This document shows positions 21,366 to 30,382 of a DNA stretch of 64,000 bases, piece after piece (the first letter of the stretch is position 1; the number at the start of each line of letters is the position of its first letter). This DNA comes from a virus, in IMG/VR virus record IMGVR_UViG_3300046804_000544, positions 1 through 64,000 of that record; one strand, 5' to 3'. The notes under the pieces are model-generated. The model saw nothing but the letters and a program-made list of their open reading frames with translations. It did not search any database and had not been told where the DNA came from. Made by a program: the position numbers and the translations under genes.

Positions 21366-21893
21366 TTAGCTTAAAGCTACTCCGTATGCAGCAGATAGTG
21401 CAACAGCATATCCTTTAGTTATAGCACTAGAATTGTTAGTTTGTTGTAGGCTAGTAATAGTAACGTTAGTAAATCTACCAGTACTTGGTGTTGTAACGCC
21501 CACAGAAGTATTATCAATAGATCCTGTTGTATTTGGCGATATTGTTACTGTACCACTTCCGCTAGGACTTATTGTTACACTGGCATTATTTGGACTCAGT
21601 GTAACTGTAGAACTATTAGCCGTTAGTGTTGTAAATGTTCCTTGACGTGGGGTAGTTTGTCCTATTAAAGTATTATCCAATGTTCCTGGAGTAGTAGGAT
21701 TTAGTACTGCAAAATTTGTAACATTTAAATTTGCAACAGTAAAACTACTGTTGGTATTGATAGTCAATGTATTTGTAGTTGAGTTAGTTACTAAACTAAT
21801 GCCTCCAGAGCTGGTTAAATTTAGTGTATTACTATTAGAATTTAAATTAATTGTACTTTGTCCAGGTACTGCTATGTAAGTATATCCGTTCAT
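21366..21893 (-). CDS. Small fibre-like repeat protein
   Basis: 175 residues, rich in Asn, Thr and Ser, beta-type. Two copies of the I-D-N-T-x-x-G-x-T-T-P repeat are visible (DNTLIGQTTPRQGTFTTL and DNTSVGVTTPSTGRFTNV), linked by a VTLSPNNASVTISPSGSG segment. No enzymatic motif is present. An AAGGAG ribosome site precedes the ATG at 21893, which overlaps the upstream gene by one base. With its neighbours it may form one fibre, each gene encoding a segment, or it may be a product of duplication. Function inferred from repeats only. Confidence 0.82.
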   Translation of the reverse strand: MNGYTYIAVPGQSTINLNSNSNTLNLTSSGGISLVTNSTTNTLTINTNSSFTVANLNVTNFAVLNPTTPGTLDNTLIGQTTPRQGTFTTLTANSSTVTLSPNNASVTISPSGSGTVTISPNTTGSIDNTSVGVTTPSTGRFTNVTITSLQQTNNSSAITKGYAVALSAAYGVALS

Positions 21894-22990: not shown

Positions 22991-23635
22991 ATGCTAAATT
23001 ACAGTATGAACCTACGCAAACTTTTAGACGAAGAATTAGATCTTTCAGAACTGCAAAAAATACCATTAACTGCTAGTAGCTATACAAAGCCAGTAGTTGG
23101 AATCAGCAGAGATGGTATTATAAATGTTACTAAAATAGATCATGTTAAACATCCTGACGAATTTGAGCCTATTCAGGGGGCCGCTGAAGCTGTAGCTGAA
23201 ATTAGAAAAAAAGGCTACAGAATTATTATTTTATCTAATCAATTTGGCATTAGTGAACAGCGTATGACTCCTGTGCAAGTAGACACAGTAAATCAACGAA
23301 TGTTAGACCTTTTTGGTCAAGCAGGTTGTCCTAGCATTGACGGCATGTACTATAGTACAACTAAAATGAAGGAAGATATTTACGCATTGCCCAACATTGG
23401 CATGTTTCAACGAGCAGAAAGAGAACATAATCTACGATTTAAAGAAGGCTGGTTTGTTGGTGATAAAATCAGCGACATGAAAGGCGCCGAAAACATTGGA
23501 GCAAAACCAATACTAATTAAAACTGGTGCTTGGGAGGAAACTGCTAAAAAGTTAGAAACTTTTGCCAATAGAGATTTGCGTAAAAAAACTAAGATATTTG
23601 ATACGTTGATGGATTTTGCAAAGAGTCTAGAGTAA
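22991..23635 (+). CDS. HAD-superfamily (GmhB-like) protein lacking the catalytic nucleophile
   Basis: 214 residues aligning by eye over most of their length with D-glycero-D-manno-heptose 1,7-bisphosphate phosphatase (GmhB). Motif I, normally LDRDGTIN, reads ISRDGIIN: the nucleophilic Asp is Ser39 (codon 23105-23107) while the second Asp (41) is kept. Motif II is ILSNQFGI, motif IV VGDKISDMKGAENIGAKP with its acidic residues. The Cys-rich zinc loop and the motif III R-K-P sequence of GmhB are absent (ALPNIGMF). It is therefore probably not a phosphatase by the usual mechanism. ATG at 22991 or at 23006 (MNLRKLL) may be the start; neither has a clear ribosome site. The 3' end overlaps the convergent nitrilase by 47 bases. 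Confidence 0.82.
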   Translation: MLNYSMNLRKLLDEELDLSELQKIPLTASSYTKPVVGISRDGIINVTKIDHVKHPDEFEPIQGAAEAVAEIRKKGYRIIILSNQFGISEQRMTPVQVDTVNQRMLDLFGQAGCPSIDGMYYSTTKMKEDIYALPNIGMFQRAEREHNLRFKEGWFVGDKISDMKGAENIGAKPILIKTGAWEETAKKLETFANRDLRKKTKIFDTLMDFAKSLE

Positions 23636-24431
23636 CTGCTATTTCATCAAGATCAAAATCATAATAAAAATACTCTGTACCAAATCGATTACATTTGACT
23701 TCCCAAATGCCTTTAATACAAACACCGCTTTGCGTTAATGTCGGCCCAGTATAGCTTTCATTGCCTTCCATATCTAAGCAGTTATCTACAACAAAAAAAG
23801 GTAACAATTGCCTAGAGCCTCTTCGAATCCATGATTCTACCCACATAGATTCGATTTCATCATCGGTTGAACTTTTTCCTCTAAGGGCATTAGTTGGGTG
23901 AATAAAAACTTTGGCACCAGCGTGCCAAAGTTTTTCACATAAACCCCCTTGAGAGCTGTTATGCCCATATAGGTCTGCACAAATTACACCCCCTATAGGT
24001 ATAACGTAATTGTCATATGGTAAAAGCACACCAGTTACTGTTTCCCATTCTTTAACTCCTATTTTTACGTCGTACGGAGTTAAGACACATTTATCTATAT
24101 CCCCTATAAATTTACCTTTTTTATCATAACAGCGTATTTGATTATGTATTGTACTTCTATGTTTATTATTGTTAAACCATAAGGTACCTAGGCATAATCC
24201 AACACTTTTTGATCCAGCATACTTAACTACATCTTCTAAACAATTAGATAATTTTTCAGGATCGTCTGCAAATTCTTTTGTGTATCCGCTCAATGCTGCT
24301 TCTGGTGTTACTAGATAATCTACACAATTTTCACTTGCCCAATCTATGGCTTTTTTAATTGTGTTAGTATTCTTTAGAGCATCTGTTGTTACAGGAATTT
24401 GTGCTCCGCCAAATCGTATTGTGCCACTCAT
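23589..24431 (-). CDS. Carbon-nitrogen hydrolase (nitrilase superfamily)
   Basis: 280 residues with the complete Glu-Lys-Cys triad of the superfamily: Glu44 in TPEAALSGY, Lys114 in DIDKCVLTPYD, and Cys151 in GGVICADLYG. Length fits single-domain amidases of this class, which cleave C-N bonds of amides, N-carbamoyl compounds or nitriles. The residues around the Cys (ICADLYGHN) do not let me pick a branch. It is the last gene of an operon after the glycosyltransferase and carbamoyltransferase; its ATG lies one base after the carbamoyltransferase stop, so translation is coupled. It may release or recycle an amide or carbamoyl group connected with that pathway (inference). Confidence 0.88.
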   Translation of the reverse strand: MSGTIRFGGAQIPVTTDALKNTNTIKKAIDWASENCVDYLVTPEAALSGYTKEFADDPEKLSNCLEDVVKYAGSKSVGLCLGTLWFNNNKHRSTIHNQIRCYDKKGKFIGDIDKCVLTPYDVKIGVKEWETVTGVLLPYDNYVIPIGGVICADLYGHNSSQGGLCEKLWHAGAKVFIHPTNALRGKSSTDDEIESMWVESWIRRGSRQLLPFFVVDNCLDMEGNESYTGPTLTQSGVCIKGIWEVKCNRFGTEYFYYDFDLDEIAVTLDSLQNPSTYQIS

Positions 24432-24432
24432 A

Positions 24433-26232
24433 TTAATCTTCGTTTAGTTTTCTAATTAGTTTACCGTATTCAGGAAGATACAAATATTCTATTTCACTTC
24501 TAGCTATAGTTTCTACTGCATCAGCTAGTGTTTCAACTAACGGATCTCCGCCTAAGTTAAAACTGGTATTAAACAACACTGGAACATTGGTCTGCTTGTA
24601 AAACTCTTGAATTAAATTGTAAAAATGTTTATTCTGTTCTGCTGTAACTGTTTGAATTCTGCATGTACCGTCAACATGAATAATACTAGGTATTTTTTCT
24701 GCTACACCAGATTGACAATTAACAGCATACATCATACTAGGACTTTCTTCCATGCCTCTAAGATCAAACCATTCATGCACATGCTCTTTTAGAATTGATC
24801 CTGCAAAAGGTCGGAAATATTCACGTCTTTTAACAGTATTGACAAAATCTTTACCGTCTTCGAAAGTAGGATCAAATAAAATACTACGATTGCCTAACGC
24901 TCTTGGGCCGTTTTCACTGCCGCCTTGATACATTGCTACAATATTTTTATTTCGTAATAGGTCTACAATATCTTCATAAGTAGCATCAGCATACTCAGCA
25001 TCATATAAAGCACAAACTTCTTCAATTTGTTCTAATGTGTAGGTATATGTAGGTCCTAAATATAAATTATGTTTAAAGTCAGTGACAGTTGTGTCTTGAG
25101 TTAGGGATCTATGTAGTATCATGGCTGCACCCATAGCTGTACCGGCATCATTACTAATTGGTTCTACATAAAAATTAATGCCTCTCTTGTTTAATTCAGT
25201 GAGATAATAATAATTAGCTACACAATTAAGTCCGTAACCCCCGCTCATAACTACATTGTTGCAACCTGACAATTCTACAGCTTTAATAATTAAATTAAGA
25301 ACTTGTTCTTGAGTTTGAGTTTGTACAGCATACGCTAAATCTCTTCTATTATCGAGCGAAGTTAAATCTTCTGCATTTCGATCTGCTAGATATTCATATA
25401 GCTGTTCGTTAATAACGGCACCATTGGGATATCGTGGAACAATTAAGTTTCTATTTGTTGCTGGTTCGATGCCAGTAGTGTCAAATAGTTTAGGTATACG
25501 ATCATTTGATTTTCCGTAGGGAAATAATCCCATAGTTTTTCCTGCTTCGATAGCAGGAAATCCACAATATTCAGTTACTGCCTCATATGCCTTAACGATG
25601 CCCGCTGTATCAGTAATTCTAGCTATATGAAACCCGTTTTCGCCGTACATATCACTAGGTGTTTTTTTAGCTATTCCGCCTGGCCTTGCTTCTCTAATAC
25701 CAATGTGTTTATATAGCGTTGTAAAATTATCGGGATAGCTGCATTTAAAAATTGTTTCAGTTTCCCAACCTGTTACAGACTCGCCTGCAAAGTTTAAATT
25801 TAAAAATGTACCGGCGCCGTCTACAATTACAGATACTGCTTCTTGGAAACCGCTACGATAAAATGCACAGGCAGCATGTAACTTATGATGAAAATGGCTA
25901 AAATCAATTACTTGAGGATGATTTCTTAAATCAGCTTTGTGATTAATCAACCCAAATTTTCTTGCTAGACCTGTGTAAATATCTTCGCCACTAAAATCAA
26001 CACCACCGCTGGTGTCTTTTGGAGTAGTGTGTGCTATAACAAGATAATCAATCTTTTTAGTATATTCTAAAATTTTAGCAATGCTGGCATAGGGTCCGCC
26101 GTCGTATTTTCGACGAGTAATTCGTTCTTCTTCTATACTAAAGACAATATCACCGTCTTTTAATAAACAAACACCTGCATTGTGTCCTCGGGTAATTCCT
26201 GCAATCCATCCGCTTTTCTTTACGTCAGTCAT
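24433..26232 (-). CDS. NodU/CmcH/TobZ-family carbamoyltransferase
   Basis: The family transfers a carbamoyl group from carbamoyl phosphate, via carbamoyl-AMP, to a hydroxyl, usually on a sugar. The 599 residues match the full two-domain length. The N-terminal Kae1-like domain has GHNAG at 16-20, EEERITRRK near 34-42, a metal-site HFHHKLHAA with HxxxH at 115/119, and DGAG at 138-141. Further on are MSGGYGLNCVAN and the C-terminal YQGGSENGPRALGNRSI, both family hallmarks. The start overlaps the glycosyltransferase stop by 4 bases (ATGA). The acceptor is unknown; a phage fibre glycan, a host surface sugar or a modified base are all possible. No residue change suggests inactivation. Confidence 0.93.
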   Translation of the reverse strand: MTDVKKSGWIAGITRGHNAGVCLLKDGDIVFSIEEERITRRKYDGGPYASIAKILEYTKKIDYLVIAHTTPKDTSGGVDFSGEDIYTGLARKFGLINHKADLRNHPQVIDFSHFHHKLHAACAFYRSGFQEAVSVIVDGAGTFLNLNFAGESVTGWETETIFKCSYPDNFTTLYKHIGIREARPGGIAKKTPSDMYGENGFHIARITDTAGIVKAYEAVTEYCGFPAIEAGKTMGLFPYGKSNDRIPKLFDTTGIEPATNRNLIVPRYPNGAVINEQLYEYLADRNAEDLTSLDNRRDLAYAVQTQTQEQVLNLIIKAVELSGCNNVVMSGGYGLNCVANYYYLTELNKRGINFYVEPISNDAGTAMGAAMILHRSLTQDTTVTDFKHNLYLGPTYTYTLEQIEEVCALYDAEYADATYEDIVDLLRNKNIVAMYQGGSENGPRALGNRSILFDPTFEDGKDFVNTVKRREYFRPFAGSILKEHVHEWFDLRGMEESPSMMYAVNCQSGVAEKIPSIIHVDGTCRIQTVTAEQNKHFYNLIQEFYKQTNVPVLFNTSFNLGGDPLVETLADAVETIARSEIEYLYLPEYGKLIRKLNED

Positions 26233-27191
26233 TTGAGATCCTTATTTTTTACAAAATTTGTATACAGTTCGGTAATTGAATCTACAATTACATTTTCTAT
26301 TTTATCATTCATGGCCATAATGCCATCATTATTCATATCTGCATATTCGTCTGGGGCTATTCTAATAGGGCTATAAATTCTTACACCTTCTCCCATATCT
26401 AAAACTTTGAAATTTTCACAGCTGGGGTAAGAAACATTAATAGGAAAGGTTGAGCCCATTACAGCTACGGTTGGTTTATTTAGAGCATAAGCAATATGTT
26501 GAGCAACACTATCACAGGTTAAAACAATGTCTACTGATTTAATCAGTCCAGCCCATTGTCTAATAGGAACATTTGGAGGTATTGCCACTGGGTCTTTACA
26601 GCCCAGTGCTTGAAAGTTTAAAGGCAATTCAGTCATAACAATAACTGCAAATTCTTTTTGCAACTTGTTAATCAAACTAATCACGTTTCCAATTTCAAAA
26701 CTACGACCAGATGGATCAGTTACAATGTCGCCTTTCATAGAAACACCACGACCAAATGGTTGAAACAGTAAAGTTTTATTTTTTCCTGTTTTAGATACAA
26801 CATCTTTAATACCAATTTTTCCGTTGGTAATTTCGTCTTGGGTTAATTTAATCGTTGGTCTAGGTAATTCTCTAACACCTTTATTATTAATTTCAATATC
26901 AAAGGCCTGACTTAATGAACATTTTTGATTATAGTATTCCCAGACTCTATACGGTTCAGGAGTGACAATATCCATGTGTACTAATCTATCATGAAATAAA
27001 TTTTTGTGCCAATTATCGTAAGTTTTGTGATGTAGTTTAGGATGTGCTTTAAAAAAATCTGTGCCGCCTTCGCAAATTATAAGAAAATTTTCATCTGGAT
27101 TTTCTTCTTGGTACAGTTCAAGGGCAGGTACTGAGCAAATAACTCTGCCAGCTCCTCCATTGATAAAAAATGCTTTTGCTCGTTTGGTCAT
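26229..27191 (-). CDS. Glycosyltransferase, family 9 (heptosyltransferase)-like
   Basis: 320 residues with the GT-B layout of ADP-heptose:LPS heptosyltransferases. The N-terminal NGGAGRVICSVPALELYQE (about 11-29) replaces the usual G-x-G-D-x-x-x-x-x-P-A element, and the C-terminal nucleotide-sugar site reads CDSVAQHIAYALNKPTVAVMG. A middle segment LLFQPFGRG is at the usual interdomain position. The donor cannot be fixed from sequence. It heads the operon with the carbamoyltransferase and nitrilase. Its ribosome site (GAGGC) is held in the base of a long imperfect hairpin at 27198-27250. It may glycosylate virion proteins or a host-surface glycan that is then carbamoylated (inference). Confidence 0.82.
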   Translation of the reverse strand: MTKRAKAFFINGGAGRVICSVPALELYQEENPDENFLIICEGGTDFFKAHPKLHHKTYDNWHKNLFHDRLVHMDIVTPEPYRVWEYYNQKCSLSQAFDIEINNKGVRELPRPTIKLTQDEITNGKIGIKDVVSKTGKNKTLLFQPFGRGVSMKGDIVTDPSGRSFEIGNVISLINKLQKEFAVIVMTELPLNFQALGCKDPVAIPPNVPIRQWAGLIKSVDIVLTCDSVAQHIAYALNKPTVAVMGSTFPINVSYPSCENFKVLDMGEGVRIYSPIRIAPDEYADMNNDGIMAMNDKIENVIVDSITELYTNFVKNKDLK

Positions 27192-27271: not shown

Positions 27272-28297
27272 TTAATGTGCGTGGTAGTTTTCGCTATCTG
27301 GATCGTCGTGATCTGGAATTCCGTCACCGTCTGAGTCTTCTGGGTGGCTGTATCCACATTCTTCACACCATTTAGCGTGGTGTGCATCGTGTACAGCAGG
27401 ATCATTTAGATCAACATCTGGATCTGCTTCTTTGCATTGCTCACAGTGCTCTAAATAGTGTGAAACCTTATGAGCATGTGTGCATGGGTTGATTTGCATG
27501 ACAGGCCATGGCTCTATTGCTTCAGTTTCTGCAACAGTGTTTGGGCAAACTGCTTCGATTACATCCGGATGATCAGCACATTCATGTTCAACTGCACCCC
27601 ACTTGTATGTGCGTTCTACACTTTTTGGAGGATTAGGTACACCATCTGGTAAACCAATTGGATGTGTATTATCTAACGTAACTGTATCTGGACTTGGCCA
27701 AGTTAACTTCCAAGGATGATTTTTACATACTTCGTTGTCTAATAACTCTTGAACAATCTGTATACAATACTCAATTTTTGCTTCTTCTCTAGTAGTTAAT
27801 AGATCAGTTCTTAAGCGTCTTTTTAAATCAGCAATATGTGCCTTACCACTTCTTACCAGTTGATCCCATTGACTGTCTAATTTAAACCAGGGATAAGTTA
27901 CTCGTCCAAAACGATCAATGGTAACATCTTGCATACTGTAAGTATGATCCAATGTTGGATGCTCAAATCTTTGATATACAACATTGTATTTTTCATAAAC
28001 TGTTTCAACTATAGTATCTGTTGCATGATCTTCATGATTACAAATCATAGCCATTAATGCAATATGGTTAGGATTGTGTGAGTGTAGATAAATCCATTGC
28101 ACTTCGTCGTTGCTGTTATTAGTACCGCCATGACAAGCATATCCGTCGTGATCAAATTCTACTCCACGATTTGGTTTGCGTGTCTGTCGATCTACTCCGA
28201 CTTTAATATCGTGCGGCCCTCTATATTCACTTTCAACCCATTTCCAACCACTGGTTAAATCGTTATATTCTACTGGGGCTTTATACTTAAATTTCAT
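27272..28297 (-). CDS. His/Cys-rich protein with calcium-repeat-like C-terminus, unknown function
   Basis: 341 residues, no family recognised. The first 250 residues appear globular and contain many His, Trp and Tyr (AMICNHEDHATDT, PWKLTWPSPDTVTLD). The C-terminal 90 residues carry paired Cys and His typical of zinc binding (INPCTHAHKVSHYLEHCEQC; AKWCEECGYSHPED), followed by DSDGDGIPDHDDPDS, the Asp-rich signature of thrombospondin type 3 calcium repeats, and end HAH. An AGGAG site lies before the ATG at 28297. It sits between the Cys-rich fibre-like genes and the glycosyltransferase operon. It may be a metal-binding virion protein; this rests on composition alone. Confidence 0.85.
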   Translation of the reverse strand: MKFKYKAPVEYNDLTSGWKWVESEYRGPHDIKVGVDRQTRKPNRGVEFDHDGYACHGGTNNSNDEVQWIYLHSHNPNHIALMAMICNHEDHATDTIVETVYEKYNVVYQRFEHPTLDHTYSMQDVTIDRFGRVTYPWFKLDSQWDQLVRSGKAHIADLKRRLRTDLLTTREEAKIEYCIQIVQELLDNEVCKNHPWKLTWPSPDTVTLDNTHPIGLPDGVPNPPKSVERTYKWGAVEHECADHPDVIEAVCPNTVAETEAIEPWPVMQINPCTHAHKVSHYLEHCEQCKEADPDVDLNDPAVHDAHHAKWCEECGYSHPEDSDGDGIPDHDDPDSENYHAH

Positions 28298-28317: not shown

Positions 28318-29355
28318 TTATGAGTAACTAATCAATACTAATCCTCTGCCGCCGCAACTACCCAAACAGCAGCCGCCTCCAAGTCCGCTACCGCCAGCAC
28401 TTTTGCCGCCACCGCCGGGTGTATTTCCATTAACACCACCGTAGTTCCAGCACATAATCATACAGTTACAGCAGTTATTACAGCTACCCTGCGCTGCAAA
28501 CATGCCGCAATCACAACACTGTGCGCCACCGCCAGCATAGGCCATGCCGCCGTTGCCAAATGCAGCATGACAGTAGGCAGCACCAGCATTTCCATAACCA
28601 TTACCTGCTGTAGTCTTGTTGTCTTTTCCGCCACCACGGGGGTGATCAACACCAAATGCTACAAATTGTGCCGGATTACTAAATCCGCAGGCGCCTTTAA
28701 CAAAGAAATTAAAGCATTGGCAACAATTATATGTGCATCCAGTGTAACTAGTACCTTGTCTGAAACAAAATGCTGTATTTCTTTCAAAATAATTTCGGCA
28801 ATCCGGTCTATCATGACACCATTGACGTTGGCAATCAAATAGACCATTGTAAAAACAATCCCAGCAGCAAGCAAAAGACAGTGGGCTGTATTGAGAATTC
28901 CAATCCCAAGGCCATACACAGGCGTTTTGGTCAAACCAGCAACAAGTACTGCCTCCGCAGGCATTATCAGTTTGCCATAGCCAACCTGTTGTACAATTAC
29001 AGACTCTTGATATTTGTCCGCCGCTGCCTGCAAACCAACCCATGCCGCCTGAATTACAGCAATCGCAACTGCAAACACAAACACACAGTATATGATTAGT
29101 GCCCGATGTTGTACACACTGCCCATCCGTAGCTGCCTCCTTGCCCTCCAAATGGCGAGCCGCTACAGCAGCAACCACCAGCACCGCCACCACCTTGTCCC
29201 CACATTTCAATTACGAAACAGGTAGCAGTAGAAGGTATACAAACACAACATGCGTTAGTACCTTGAATTGCAAAGCAGGCAGTAGCACGGTGTGTAGGTC
29301 TACACCATATTCTTGATCCACCTCCAGCAGTAAATAGATTTGTAATTAATCCCAT
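28318..29355 (-). CDS. Extremely cysteine- and glycine-rich fibre-like protein A
   Basis: 345 residues with about 46 Cys (13 percent) and many Gly and Trp. It starts MGLITNLFTAGGGSRIWCRP. A conserved segment TATCFVIEMWGQGGGGAGG at about 44-62 is shared with its neighbour, the C-terminal half is Gly-rich (GNTPGGGGKSAGGSGLGGG) and ends GRGLVLISYS. Clusters such as CVCVCSCDCC are striking. The IEMWGQGGGGAGG type is seen in glycine-rich fibre tip and fibre-like proteins, where polyglycine strands pack as helices, so a fibre-tip role is plausible. The density of Cys suggests disulfides or metal. Two overlapping frames are open here, but this frame has the paralogue match. The ribosome site is weak. 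Confidence 0.82.
   Translation of the reverse strand: MGLITNLFTAGGGSRIWCRPTHRATACFAIQGTNACCVCIPSTATCFVIEMWGQGGGGAGGCCCSGSPFGGQGGSYGWAVCTTSGTNHILCVCVCSCDCCNSGGMGWFAGSGGQISRVCNCTTGWLWQTDNACGGSTCCWFDQNACVWPWDWNSQYSPLSFACCWDCFYNGLFDCQRQWCHDRPDCRNYFERNTAFCFRQGTSYTGCTYNCCQCFNFFVKGACGFSNPAQFVAFGVDHPRGGGKDNKTTAGNGYGNAGAAYCHAAFGNGGMAYAGGGAQCCDCGMFAAQGSCNNCCNCMIMCWNYGGVNGNTPGGGGKSAGGSGLGGGCCLGSCGGRGLVLISYS
29168..29229 (-). repeat. 62-bp perfect direct repeat, copy 1
   Basis: Bases 29168-29229 are identical to 30183-30244. The copies lie about 1 kb apart in the two Cys-rich paralogues and encode the TATCFVIEMWGQGGGGAGG region, while the surrounding sequences have diverged. Confidence 0.95.
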
Positions 29356-29356
29356 C

Positions 29357-30382
29357 TTAACACCAACTTATTAAAATTAATCCAGAACCACCTTGTCCTG
29401 GTTGTGTCCATGCAGTGCCGCCACCAGATGTTTTGCCACCACCGCCGGGGAAATATCCTCCAATGGCCCAACACTGAAAACAGCACCAGCCGCAGTTGTT
29501 GTACCATGATTGATCACCGCCAGCATAGGCTGCACCACCTACACCCATTCCGCCACCGCACTGACTGTTTGGTATTTGGCACATGCCGGTACTGCCTGAT
29601 ATAAAATTAAATGATCCCATAGGAGTAGCCGTTGGATCAGGATCTGACCAGCCGCAAGCGCCTAACCATACATAAGGACTTGAGAAGCAGGTACAGCAGC
29701 AACGATCAAACGGTGCATCATGCCTAATCCATTTCTTAACTGGTTCGCTGGTATTATTTCCGCCAAATATTGCTGCATTTACACAAACGCAACCACATTG
29801 TGCTAGCTGATCGCAACACAATACTGGCTGTTGATCATCAGTGGCTACTACTGAACCTTGACTTGACTGTGCTAGTTCTTTGGAGTAATCCATATAGAAT
29901 CTCCAAACATTAGAAACATATTTTCCTGCACAGCAACAGCAGCTTCCGCCCCAGAAACAGCACCACACGCCCGTTGCGCCGCCGCACACGCACCAGGTCG
30001 ATAATCCACCGCCTTGGCATTGGACTACTCTTGAAAATTGTCCGTGGTATGCCTGACAAATTGAACATTGAGAGCAGATACAGTAGCAGTTACATGCACA
30101 TAGTATATGATTAACACCTGATGTTGTACAGGTCACCCAACCATATGCGCCGCCTTGGCCGCCGTAAGGGCCGTTACCACAACAGCAACCACCAGCACCG
30201 CCACCACCTTGTCCCCACATTTCAATTACGAAACAGGTAGCAGTCGAAGGGACGCATACGCAACAGGCTCCGCCGCAGGCAATCCACATACAACAGGTAG
30301 GCTTGTGTGCAGGTCTACACCAATAGGTATTAGGCCTACCGCCGCCTGCTTTACCTCCAATATATCCAAATACTGATGCCAT
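29357..30382 (-). CDS. Extremely cysteine- and glycine-rich fibre-like protein B, paralogue of A
   Basis: 341 residues with about 45 Cys. It shares with protein A the start region (YWCRPAHKPTCCMWI), the CVCVPSTATCFVIEMWGQGG core, the GPYGGQGGAYGWVTCTTSGV segment, the ACGWSDPDP region in place of ACGFSNPAQ, and a Gly-rich end (GQGGSGLILISWC). Internal regions are diverged, with Cys clusters at different spacings (ACNCYCICSQC; GGSCCCCAG). An AAAGGA ribosome site precedes the ATG at 30382. It is one base from protein A, so the two are co-translated. A tandem duplication followed by divergence is the simplest explanation. Confidence 0.82.
   Translation of the reverse strand: MASVFGYIGGKAGGGRPNTYWCRPAHKPTCCMWIACGGACCVCVPSTATCFVIEMWGQGGGGAGGCCCGNGPYGGQGGAYGWVTCTTSGVNHILCACNCYCICSQCSICQAYHGQFSRVVQCQGGGLSTWCVCGGATGVWCCFWGGSCCCCAGKYVSNVWRFYMDYSKELAQSSQGSVVATDDQQPVLCCDQLAQCGCVCVNAAIFGGNNTSEPVKKWIRHDAPFDRCCCTCFSSPYVWLGACGWSDPDPTATPMGSFNFISGSTGMCQIPNSQCGGGMGVGGAAYAGGDQSWYNNCGWCCFQCWAIGGYFPGGGGKTSGGGTAWTQPGQGGSGLILISWC
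30183..30244 (-). repeat. 62-bp perfect direct repeat, copy 2
   Basis: Identical to 29168-29229 and within the paralogous gene; see copy 1. Confidence 0.95.

Follow-up and report, generated by a model that had tools for sequence, protein, structure and literature searches.

A conserved glycosyltransferase and carbamoyltransferase gene pair of aquatic phages as a candidate pathway for carbamoyl-sugar decoration of cysteine-rich fibres

This work examines a 64,000-nucleotide window of viral DNA (positions 1 to 64,000 of the 132,916-base IMG/VR virus record IMGVR_UViG_3300046804_000544) and, within it, an operon at positions 23589-27191 of the minus strand that encodes a GT9-fold glycosyltransferase (GT), a NodU/TobZ-type O-carbamoyltransferase (CT) and a nitrilase-superfamily amidohydrolase. 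Our results show that the conserved unit is the pair of GT and CT, which is common to many aquatic phages, both in IMG/VR and among isolates. It is likely that the two enzymes transfer a sugar and O-carbamoylate it, and the chance that this sugar is heptose is about even. The best explanation at present, which we place slightly short of an even chance, is that GT and CT decorate Cys/Gly-rich fibre proteins with a carbamoyl-sugar, probably a carbamoyl-heptose. Carbamoyl-sugar decoration is the best-supported reading because of the fold and active-site residues of the enzymes and their conserved association with genes of ADP-heptose type and with Cys-rich fibre-like proteins. An original prediction, made from the sequence of the window, had tentatively assigned such a decoration of virion fibres or host surface to all three enzymes; it is partly supported, for GT and CT, and the trio is not its unit.

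Results

The three open reading frames (ORFs) of the operon are tightly arranged on the minus strand, with GT (320 aa, 26229-27191) overlapping CT (599 aa, 24433-26232) by 4 bases and a single base separating CT from the nitrilase (280 aa, 23589-24431). The original prediction had described this layout and named a GT9-like transferase, a full-length NodU-type CT and a nitrilase with an E-K-C triad, and profile searches agree with it on each gene: GT scored 30.4 bits with PF01075 (Glyco_transf_9, gathering cut-off 22), CT scored 96.8 with PF02543 (Carbam_trans_N, cut-off 24) and 191.6 with PF16861 (Carbam_trans_C, cut-off 27), and the nitrilase scored 30 with PF00795 (CN_hydrolase, cut-off 23.2). 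All three proteins already fall within PHROG families, namely phrog_8954 for GT (unknown function, E=2.6e-147), phrog_1601 for CT (Nol-like carbamoyltransferase, E=2.4e-170) and phrog_36475 for the nitrilase (nitrilase, unknown function), and megablast against phages gave no match.

The sequence similarity of GT to GT9 is weak, and a GT profile searched by sequence against the PDB had no match at E<=0.01. Its AlphaFold2 model (predicted local distance difference test, pLDDT, 94.4) retrieved GT9 enzymes in all of the top 30 Foldseek matches from the PDB (WaaF, WaaC, TibC and a Veillonella GT9), and on this model GT has the GT9 (WaaC/WaaF) fold and is a probable heptosyltransferase-like enzyme. 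The motifs GG.GR and CDS..QH are invariant in the GT family, and a scan for GTs of cellular origin returned three contigs of metagenome-assembled genomes only. The GT9 fold is shared with the TibC/AAH autotransporter heptosyltransferases, of which TibC heptosylates a surface adhesin (PMC4358343), and their glycosylation of a repetitive protein at the surface would be the analogous reaction. Unlike these enzymes, the phage GT model has no N-terminal beta-barrel (~97 residues) and starts directly with a strand-helix Rossmann-type unit, the four-Cys iron finger is missing (only C226 is invariant), and the Foldseek similarity is moderate (template modelling score ~0.55, ~11% identity).

Judged by its sequence, CT is a member of the NodU/TobZ O-carbamoyltransferases with intact active-site motifs. 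It keeps H17, H115/H116, H119, D138, D362 and R444/R449 (in GPRALGNRS), together with all motifs compared (RGHN, HHxxH, VDG, SNDAG, GPRALGNRS, KRREYFRPFA, HVDGTCRIQT and NTSFN), which are assigned, after TobZ, to the metal, carbamoyl-phosphate and ATP ligands; G447 and R449 occupy the inferred positions of TobZ G421 and R423. Its sequence relatives of solved structure are 7xb6, 9s2t, GdmN and TobZ. TobZ, GdmN and the novobiocin O-carbamoyltransferases share with CT the sequence family and the metal-ligand and carbamoyl-phosphate/ATP motifs, but act on antibiotic substrates and match CT mainly over the C-terminal two thirds. CT is also well below the equivalog cut-off of the NodU nodulation protein (NF041651, 136.5 vs 1000 bits).

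A scan of IMG/VR with CT, in which only the best matches were kept (80 loci) and which therefore describes the close clade of this enzyme, gave 82 CT loci after the addition of three nitrilase loci. A relative of GT is found in 78 of them, and the other four (L018, L028, L029 and L062) are cut off no more than ~1.2 kb upstream of CT. Every untruncated locus retrieved holds both genes, and GT and CT form an old, conserved unit. The original prediction had taken the trio as the unit and suggested looking for it in other phages; it does recur, in six related loci (L013-L015 and L093-L095, with one to three tandem nitrilase copies after CT), and elsewhere GT and CT occur with no nitrilase behind them. 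The trio as a conserved unit was thus rejected, and the nitrilase is a recent add-on in the window's own lineage.

GT followed directly by CT is also found in the cultured cyanophages S-SSM7, S-CAM1, P-SSM2 and Sf-FS3, and S-CAM3 holds the pair too, with ADP-heptose-type genes following. In cyanophages CT is followed by a split HldE-like adenylyltransferase and kinase, a small HAD protein, a cupin and an HldD-like epimerase (NCBIfam types, all below equivalog cut-offs), and in S-SSM7, S-CAM1 and Sf-FS3 the whole cluster sits between fibre genes and the neck gene gp13. Among the records listed, the cyanophage and single-cell marine ones that are positive for GT also match the HldE-like adenylyltransferase, and some metagenomic loci (L065 and L066) combine CT, GT, HAD, epimerase, adenylyltransferase and kinase, in L066 as one run. 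The cyanophage pair corresponds to T4-GC 302 (GT, left as 'hypothetical') and 303 (CT), present in genomes since P-SSM2, which directly precede the T4-GC 304-308 set; clusters 304, 305, 307 and 308 have been described as co-occurring and possibly functionally linked (Sullivan et al. 2010, PMC3037559). The pairs of P-SSM2, S-SSM7, S-CAM1 and others resemble that of the window in the homology and order of GT and CT, in the fibre neighbourhood and in the Cys/Gly-rich proteins upstream. They differ from it in the genes added after CT and in having no nitrilase there; distant relatives of the nitrilase occupy other sites in P-SSM2 and P-SSM5, and in Sf-FS3 they have a NadE-like gene nearby.

Directly before GT, Sf-FS3 carries a gene for a 2-oxoglutarate-Fe(II) oxygenase (L005, 13141-13773), and a hypothetical gene is similarly placed in S-SSM7 (L002, 18062-18721). 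Hydroxylation of fibres ahead of glycosylation is conceivable.

The neighbours upstream of the operon in the window, all on the minus strand, are a His-rich acidic protein with CxxC clusters (27272-28297; 7.6% His, 3.2% Cys) and two tandem paralogous Cys/Gly-rich fibre-like proteins, one at 28318-29355 with a WGxGG...CCC motif (13.3% Cys, 19.1% Gly) and one at 29357-30382 (13.2% Cys, 18.8% Gly), in line with the His/Cys-rich and Cys-rich neighbours that had been predicted. Searches of Pfam and PHROG gave no match for the two Cys/Gly-rich proteins. Most related loci (e.g. L013, L024, L047, L081 and L088) have tandem proteins of this kind upstream of GT, ~250-400 aa long and in most cases with Cys contents of 9-13% and Gly contents of 15-20%: they are present within 6 kb in 57/70 loci and anywhere in the locus in 66/81, and 9 of the 15 loci that have none are cut close to GT. 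A WGxGG motif, commonly followed by CCC, is found in 144 of 180 such proteins. Homologues of the His-rich protein adjoin GT in L013-L015, L093 and L094 and, with weaker similarity, in L024, L025, L052 and L053. The Cys/Gly-rich proteins are the obvious candidate substrates of GT and CT. Their high Cys content is odd for a putative virion protein made in the cytosol and raises the question of metal binding, disulfides formed after release or S-modification.

Two features of the region had been overlooked in the original prediction, a GmhB-like HAD gene and the operon's own sigma70-type promoter, which lies in an inverted repeat. The T4-type late promoter core ATAAATA occurs 21 times in the 132.9 kb record, and 15 of these copies precede an ORF start by 10-100 bases, against 0.7 expected; the ORFs concerned are mostly in the structural region and include the fibre genes at 21893, 31094, 36318, 42108 and 48154. 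No ATAAATA was found upstream of the GT-CT-nitrilase operon in this record. Just before GT there is instead a TTGACT-17-TATAAT promoter (27247-27219, minus strand), which ranks first among the 51 promoter-like sites of an 18 kb stretch, a number no higher than in shuffled sequence, and is one of four strict matches in the whole record. The same site, matching at 11/12 positions, precedes GT in L013, L014 and L093, and a similar one does so in P-SSM2. Sigma70-like sites with at least 10/12 matches were found at 15/52 GT starts and at 18/503 control ORFs of the same loci (Fisher p=1.5e-8, a value that overstates independence, the loci being related). A single late operon shared with the fibres is therefore unsupported in the window lineage, where ATAAATA precedes virion genes and a sigma70-type site precedes GT, and these motifs predict that a host-type promoter drives the enzymes independently of the fibres.

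The promoter overlaps a hairpin (27254-27194, minus strand), which separates the GT gene from the late fibre operon and has an 18-bp outer stem, a 6-bp inner stem and a minimum free energy of -28.1. Stems of at least 9 bp are present upstream of GT in 23/57 loci, compared with 3% of shuffles; L016, L044 and L063 have a clear terminator-type stem with a T-run, and some relatives have a TATAAT-like box on the loop side. The hairpin has the appearance of a compact element, terminator and promoter in one, at the border of a late and a host-type transcription unit.

All 10 family members in the alignment share the nitrilase triad (E44-K114-C151), and the model of the protein (pLDDT 88.6) has a nitrilase fold. 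Carbamoylases come first among its Foldseek matches (14-18% identity), but only just ahead of amidases and the glutaminase domains of NAD synthetases. The best NCBIfam match is NAD+ synthase, far below cut-off; the single sequence had no match in the PDB at E<=0.01, and matches of a nitrilase profile were weak and in part spurious. Going by the modelled fold, the nitrilase probably acts as an amidase, a carbamoylase or a glutaminase and would trim or feed the chemistry of GT and CT. In Pelagibacter phage HTVC008M (L102, 3995-7417) and in Sf-FS3 (L011, 5232-8864) a NadE-like gene lies beside UDP-glucose dehydrogenase and a CT or nitrilase, an arrangement that suggests a split glutamine amidotransferase (nitrilase glutaminase plus NadE-like ligase) for sugar amidation.

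Convergent with the nitrilase gene is the GmhB-like HAD gene (22991-23635, plus strand), and the two coding ends overlap by 47 bases (23589-23635). The HAD protein matches NCBIfam GmhB-type models (E=1.8e-32, below cut-off) and has GmhB structures as PDB relatives (4pnh and 2gmw). Motif I reads SRDG, with Ser in place of the nucleophilic Asp, in all HADs of the nitrilase lineage (5 non-redundant sequences, L013, L014, L015 and L093 among them), whereas 8/8 other HAD homologues, several of them clustered with heptose-type genes, have DRDG. The Ser form is not decaying, with pairwise nonsynonymous divergence (dN) of 0.13-0.23 and synonymous divergence high or saturated. On these substitution rates it is under purifying selection, and it is probably a conserved pseudo-phosphatase, repurposed and phosphatase-dead.

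Discussion

In the pathway that we propose, the GT9-fold enzyme would transfer a sugar, most likely heptose from ADP-heptose, onto an acceptor, and CT would then O-carbamoylate this sugar with carbamoyl phosphate and ATP, or would do so before transfer, so that the product would be a carbamoyl-sugar cap. The most likely acceptor would be the tandem Cys/Gly-rich fibre proteins encoded beside the pair, with the nitrilase and the nucleophile-less HAD as lineage-specific accessories. A GT9 enzyme and a carbamoyltransferase also meet in one glycan in the inner core of Pseudomonas lipopolysaccharide (LPS), where WaaC/WaaF act together with WapO, the putative enzyme that places a carbamoyl on heptose (PMC8005017) to give 7-O-carbamoyl-heptose, and the ADP-heptose-type genes linked to the phage relatives extend this likeness. 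The phage pair differs from the Pseudomonas system in being a two-gene operon among fibre genes, in its linkage to Cys/Gly-rich proteins and in the Arg at the presumed catalytic-base position of GT; the product is predicted. The original prediction knew of no described phage pathway that combines the three enzymes. Full-text searches of open-access papers returned no account of a phage pathway built on a GT9 enzyme and a carbamoyltransferase, although databases have held the genes for years.

Several observations weigh against fibre decoration with carbamoyl-heptose. Residue R16 is invariant in 85/85 phage GTs at the presumed position of the GT9 catalytic-base Asp, an equivalence that rests on motif alignment and not on superposition. 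In WaaC this base is presumably D13 of the GxGD loop. In TibC it is D110, in the N-terminal loop (PMC4358343). Acidic residues of the phage GT that are candidates to replace this base are E41, E79, D98 and E120. Because of this Arg, and because GT does not reach the cut-offs of the ADP-heptose:LPS heptosyltransferase equivalogs (TIGR02193/02195/02201; best score 22.3 bits vs 185.3), the phage enzyme is set apart from characterised heptosyltransferases. The role of an active GmhB heptose-bisphosphate phosphatase was rejected for the HAD, in which the nucleophilic Asp of motif I (DxD) is gone. Searches of the 132.9 kb record and of three contigs of the nitrilase lineage, all of them partial, turned up no gene for ADP-heptose synthesis; in this lineage either the host supplies the heptose donor or the donor has changed. 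The large terminase of the record is nearest to those of PA5oct-like Pseudomonas phages of ~285 kb (57% identity), so the record is probably incomplete and little can be concluded from a gene that is missing there. A look for virion glycoproteomics of these phages in the literature found none. Finally, the sigma70-type promoter sets the operon apart from the late fibre genes and fits modification of the host at least as well.

The choice between fibre and host surface, which the original prediction had left as alternatives, thus turns in part on this promoter, and we put the fibre somewhat ahead as acceptor. The pair could instead remodel the surface of the infected host by placing a (carbamoyl-)sugar on an envelope glycan such as LPS or capsule, which would serve superinfection exclusion or progeny release, with its site in the fibre region reflecting a host-recognition cassette. 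We regard this as a close rival, though less likely than not. The promoter and hairpin would keep the operon apart from the late fibre genes, and the enrichment of sigma70-type sites at GT starts extends this to relatives; carbamoyl-heptose is a known group of the LPS core (PMC8005017), and glycosyltransferases in the host-recognition cluster of pelagimyophages have been interpreted in this way (PMC7029224). However, in diverse phages the pair is almost always accompanied by Cys/Gly-rich fibre-like proteins in tandem, and a late motif does stand upstream of GT in 5/57 relatives. Cyanobacterial LPS, moreover, is reported to be without heptose (PMC4515613), so that the cyanophage versions cannot copy a step of the host LPS core and their heptose pathway does not simply feed that core; cyanophages seem to equip their hosts with a heptose chemistry of which the hosts' own LPS makes no use. 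The separate promoter is compatible both with early modification of the host surface and with stocking of the enzymes before fibres appear. Fibre decoration can be extended into a self-contained virion glycosylation in many aquatic phages, in which a divergent GT9 enzyme would heptosylate Cys/Gly-rich receptor-binding fibres and CT would cap them with carbamoyl, the enzymes being made early from a host-type promoter to await the late fibres, and cyanophages bringing ADP-heptose synthesis to hosts without LPS heptose; in this full form we think it unlikely.

It is improbable that the pair, with the nitrilase included, works on a soluble metabolite or on a glycan that has nothing to do with fibres or surface, making or modifying for example a nucleotide sugar or small molecule. 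The antibiotic-pathway enzymes TobZ, GdmN and the novobiocin enzyme do act on small molecules and nitrilases are metabolic enzymes, but the conserved fibre-region position and the linkage to ADP-heptose-type and fibre genes speak against this, and no other biosynthetic cluster surrounds the pair. Still less probable is that the pathway has lost its heptose role in the nitrilase lineage and is being repurposed there. The loss of the HAD nucleophile, the lack of heptose genes in the window record and three relatives and the variable nitrilase copy number, as if the nitrilases were expanding, would fit such a change, but GT and CT of this lineage remain 80-83% and 74-78% identical to the window copies, with low dN and intact motifs, the records are partial, and the host could supply ADP-heptose. 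Hypermodification of DNA, with CT making 5-carbamoyloxymethylcytosine (eLife 2021, e70021), is the least credible reading and was rejected on gene context and residues. NodU-family enzymes of phage-like contigs are capable of it, as the 5-hydroxymethylcytosine carbamoyltransferase found by MetaGPA demonstrates, but that enzyme goes with thymidylate synthase and deaminase genes, TobZ W408, G421 and R423 are named as the discriminating positions, and the CTs of unmodified contigs sit beside glycosyltransferases (PMC8670742). The window CT is not associated with genes for thymidylate synthase/dCMP hydroxymethylase, deaminase or ligase, and the thymidylate synthase-linked CT of Acinetobacter phage MD-2021a is remote from it (~25%), has T where the window CT keeps R449 (inferred TobZ R423, one of the DNA-modification-linked residues) and has lost KRREYFRPFA.

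Carbamoyl-sugar decoration by GT and CT would provide a candidate function for the widespread unknown phage family phrog_8954 and for the long-annotated, unexplained carbamoyltransferase and 'LPS' genes of cyanophages (T4-GC 302-308), which are here linked with fibre-like proteins of very high Cys content, a family so far overlooked. With the fibre as acceptor, phages would encode a heptosyl-carbamoyl modification of their receptor-binding proteins, and with the host surface as acceptor, a new way of altering phage receptors; either can be checked by mass spectrometry on the cultured phages P-SSM2, S-SSM7 and S-CAM1.

Two further clusters were noticed among the loci. In Acinetobacter phage MD-2021a (L104, 3701-9227) the CT is accompanied by thymidylate synthase, deaminase and DNA ligase, which resembles a DNA modification cluster for 5-carbamoyloxymethylcytosine. 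In L008 (6808-14986, genome 108808-116986, plus strand) there are about seven consecutive ORFs, several of which have, by eye only, radical-SAM-like CxxxCxxC or SPASM-like Cys motifs.

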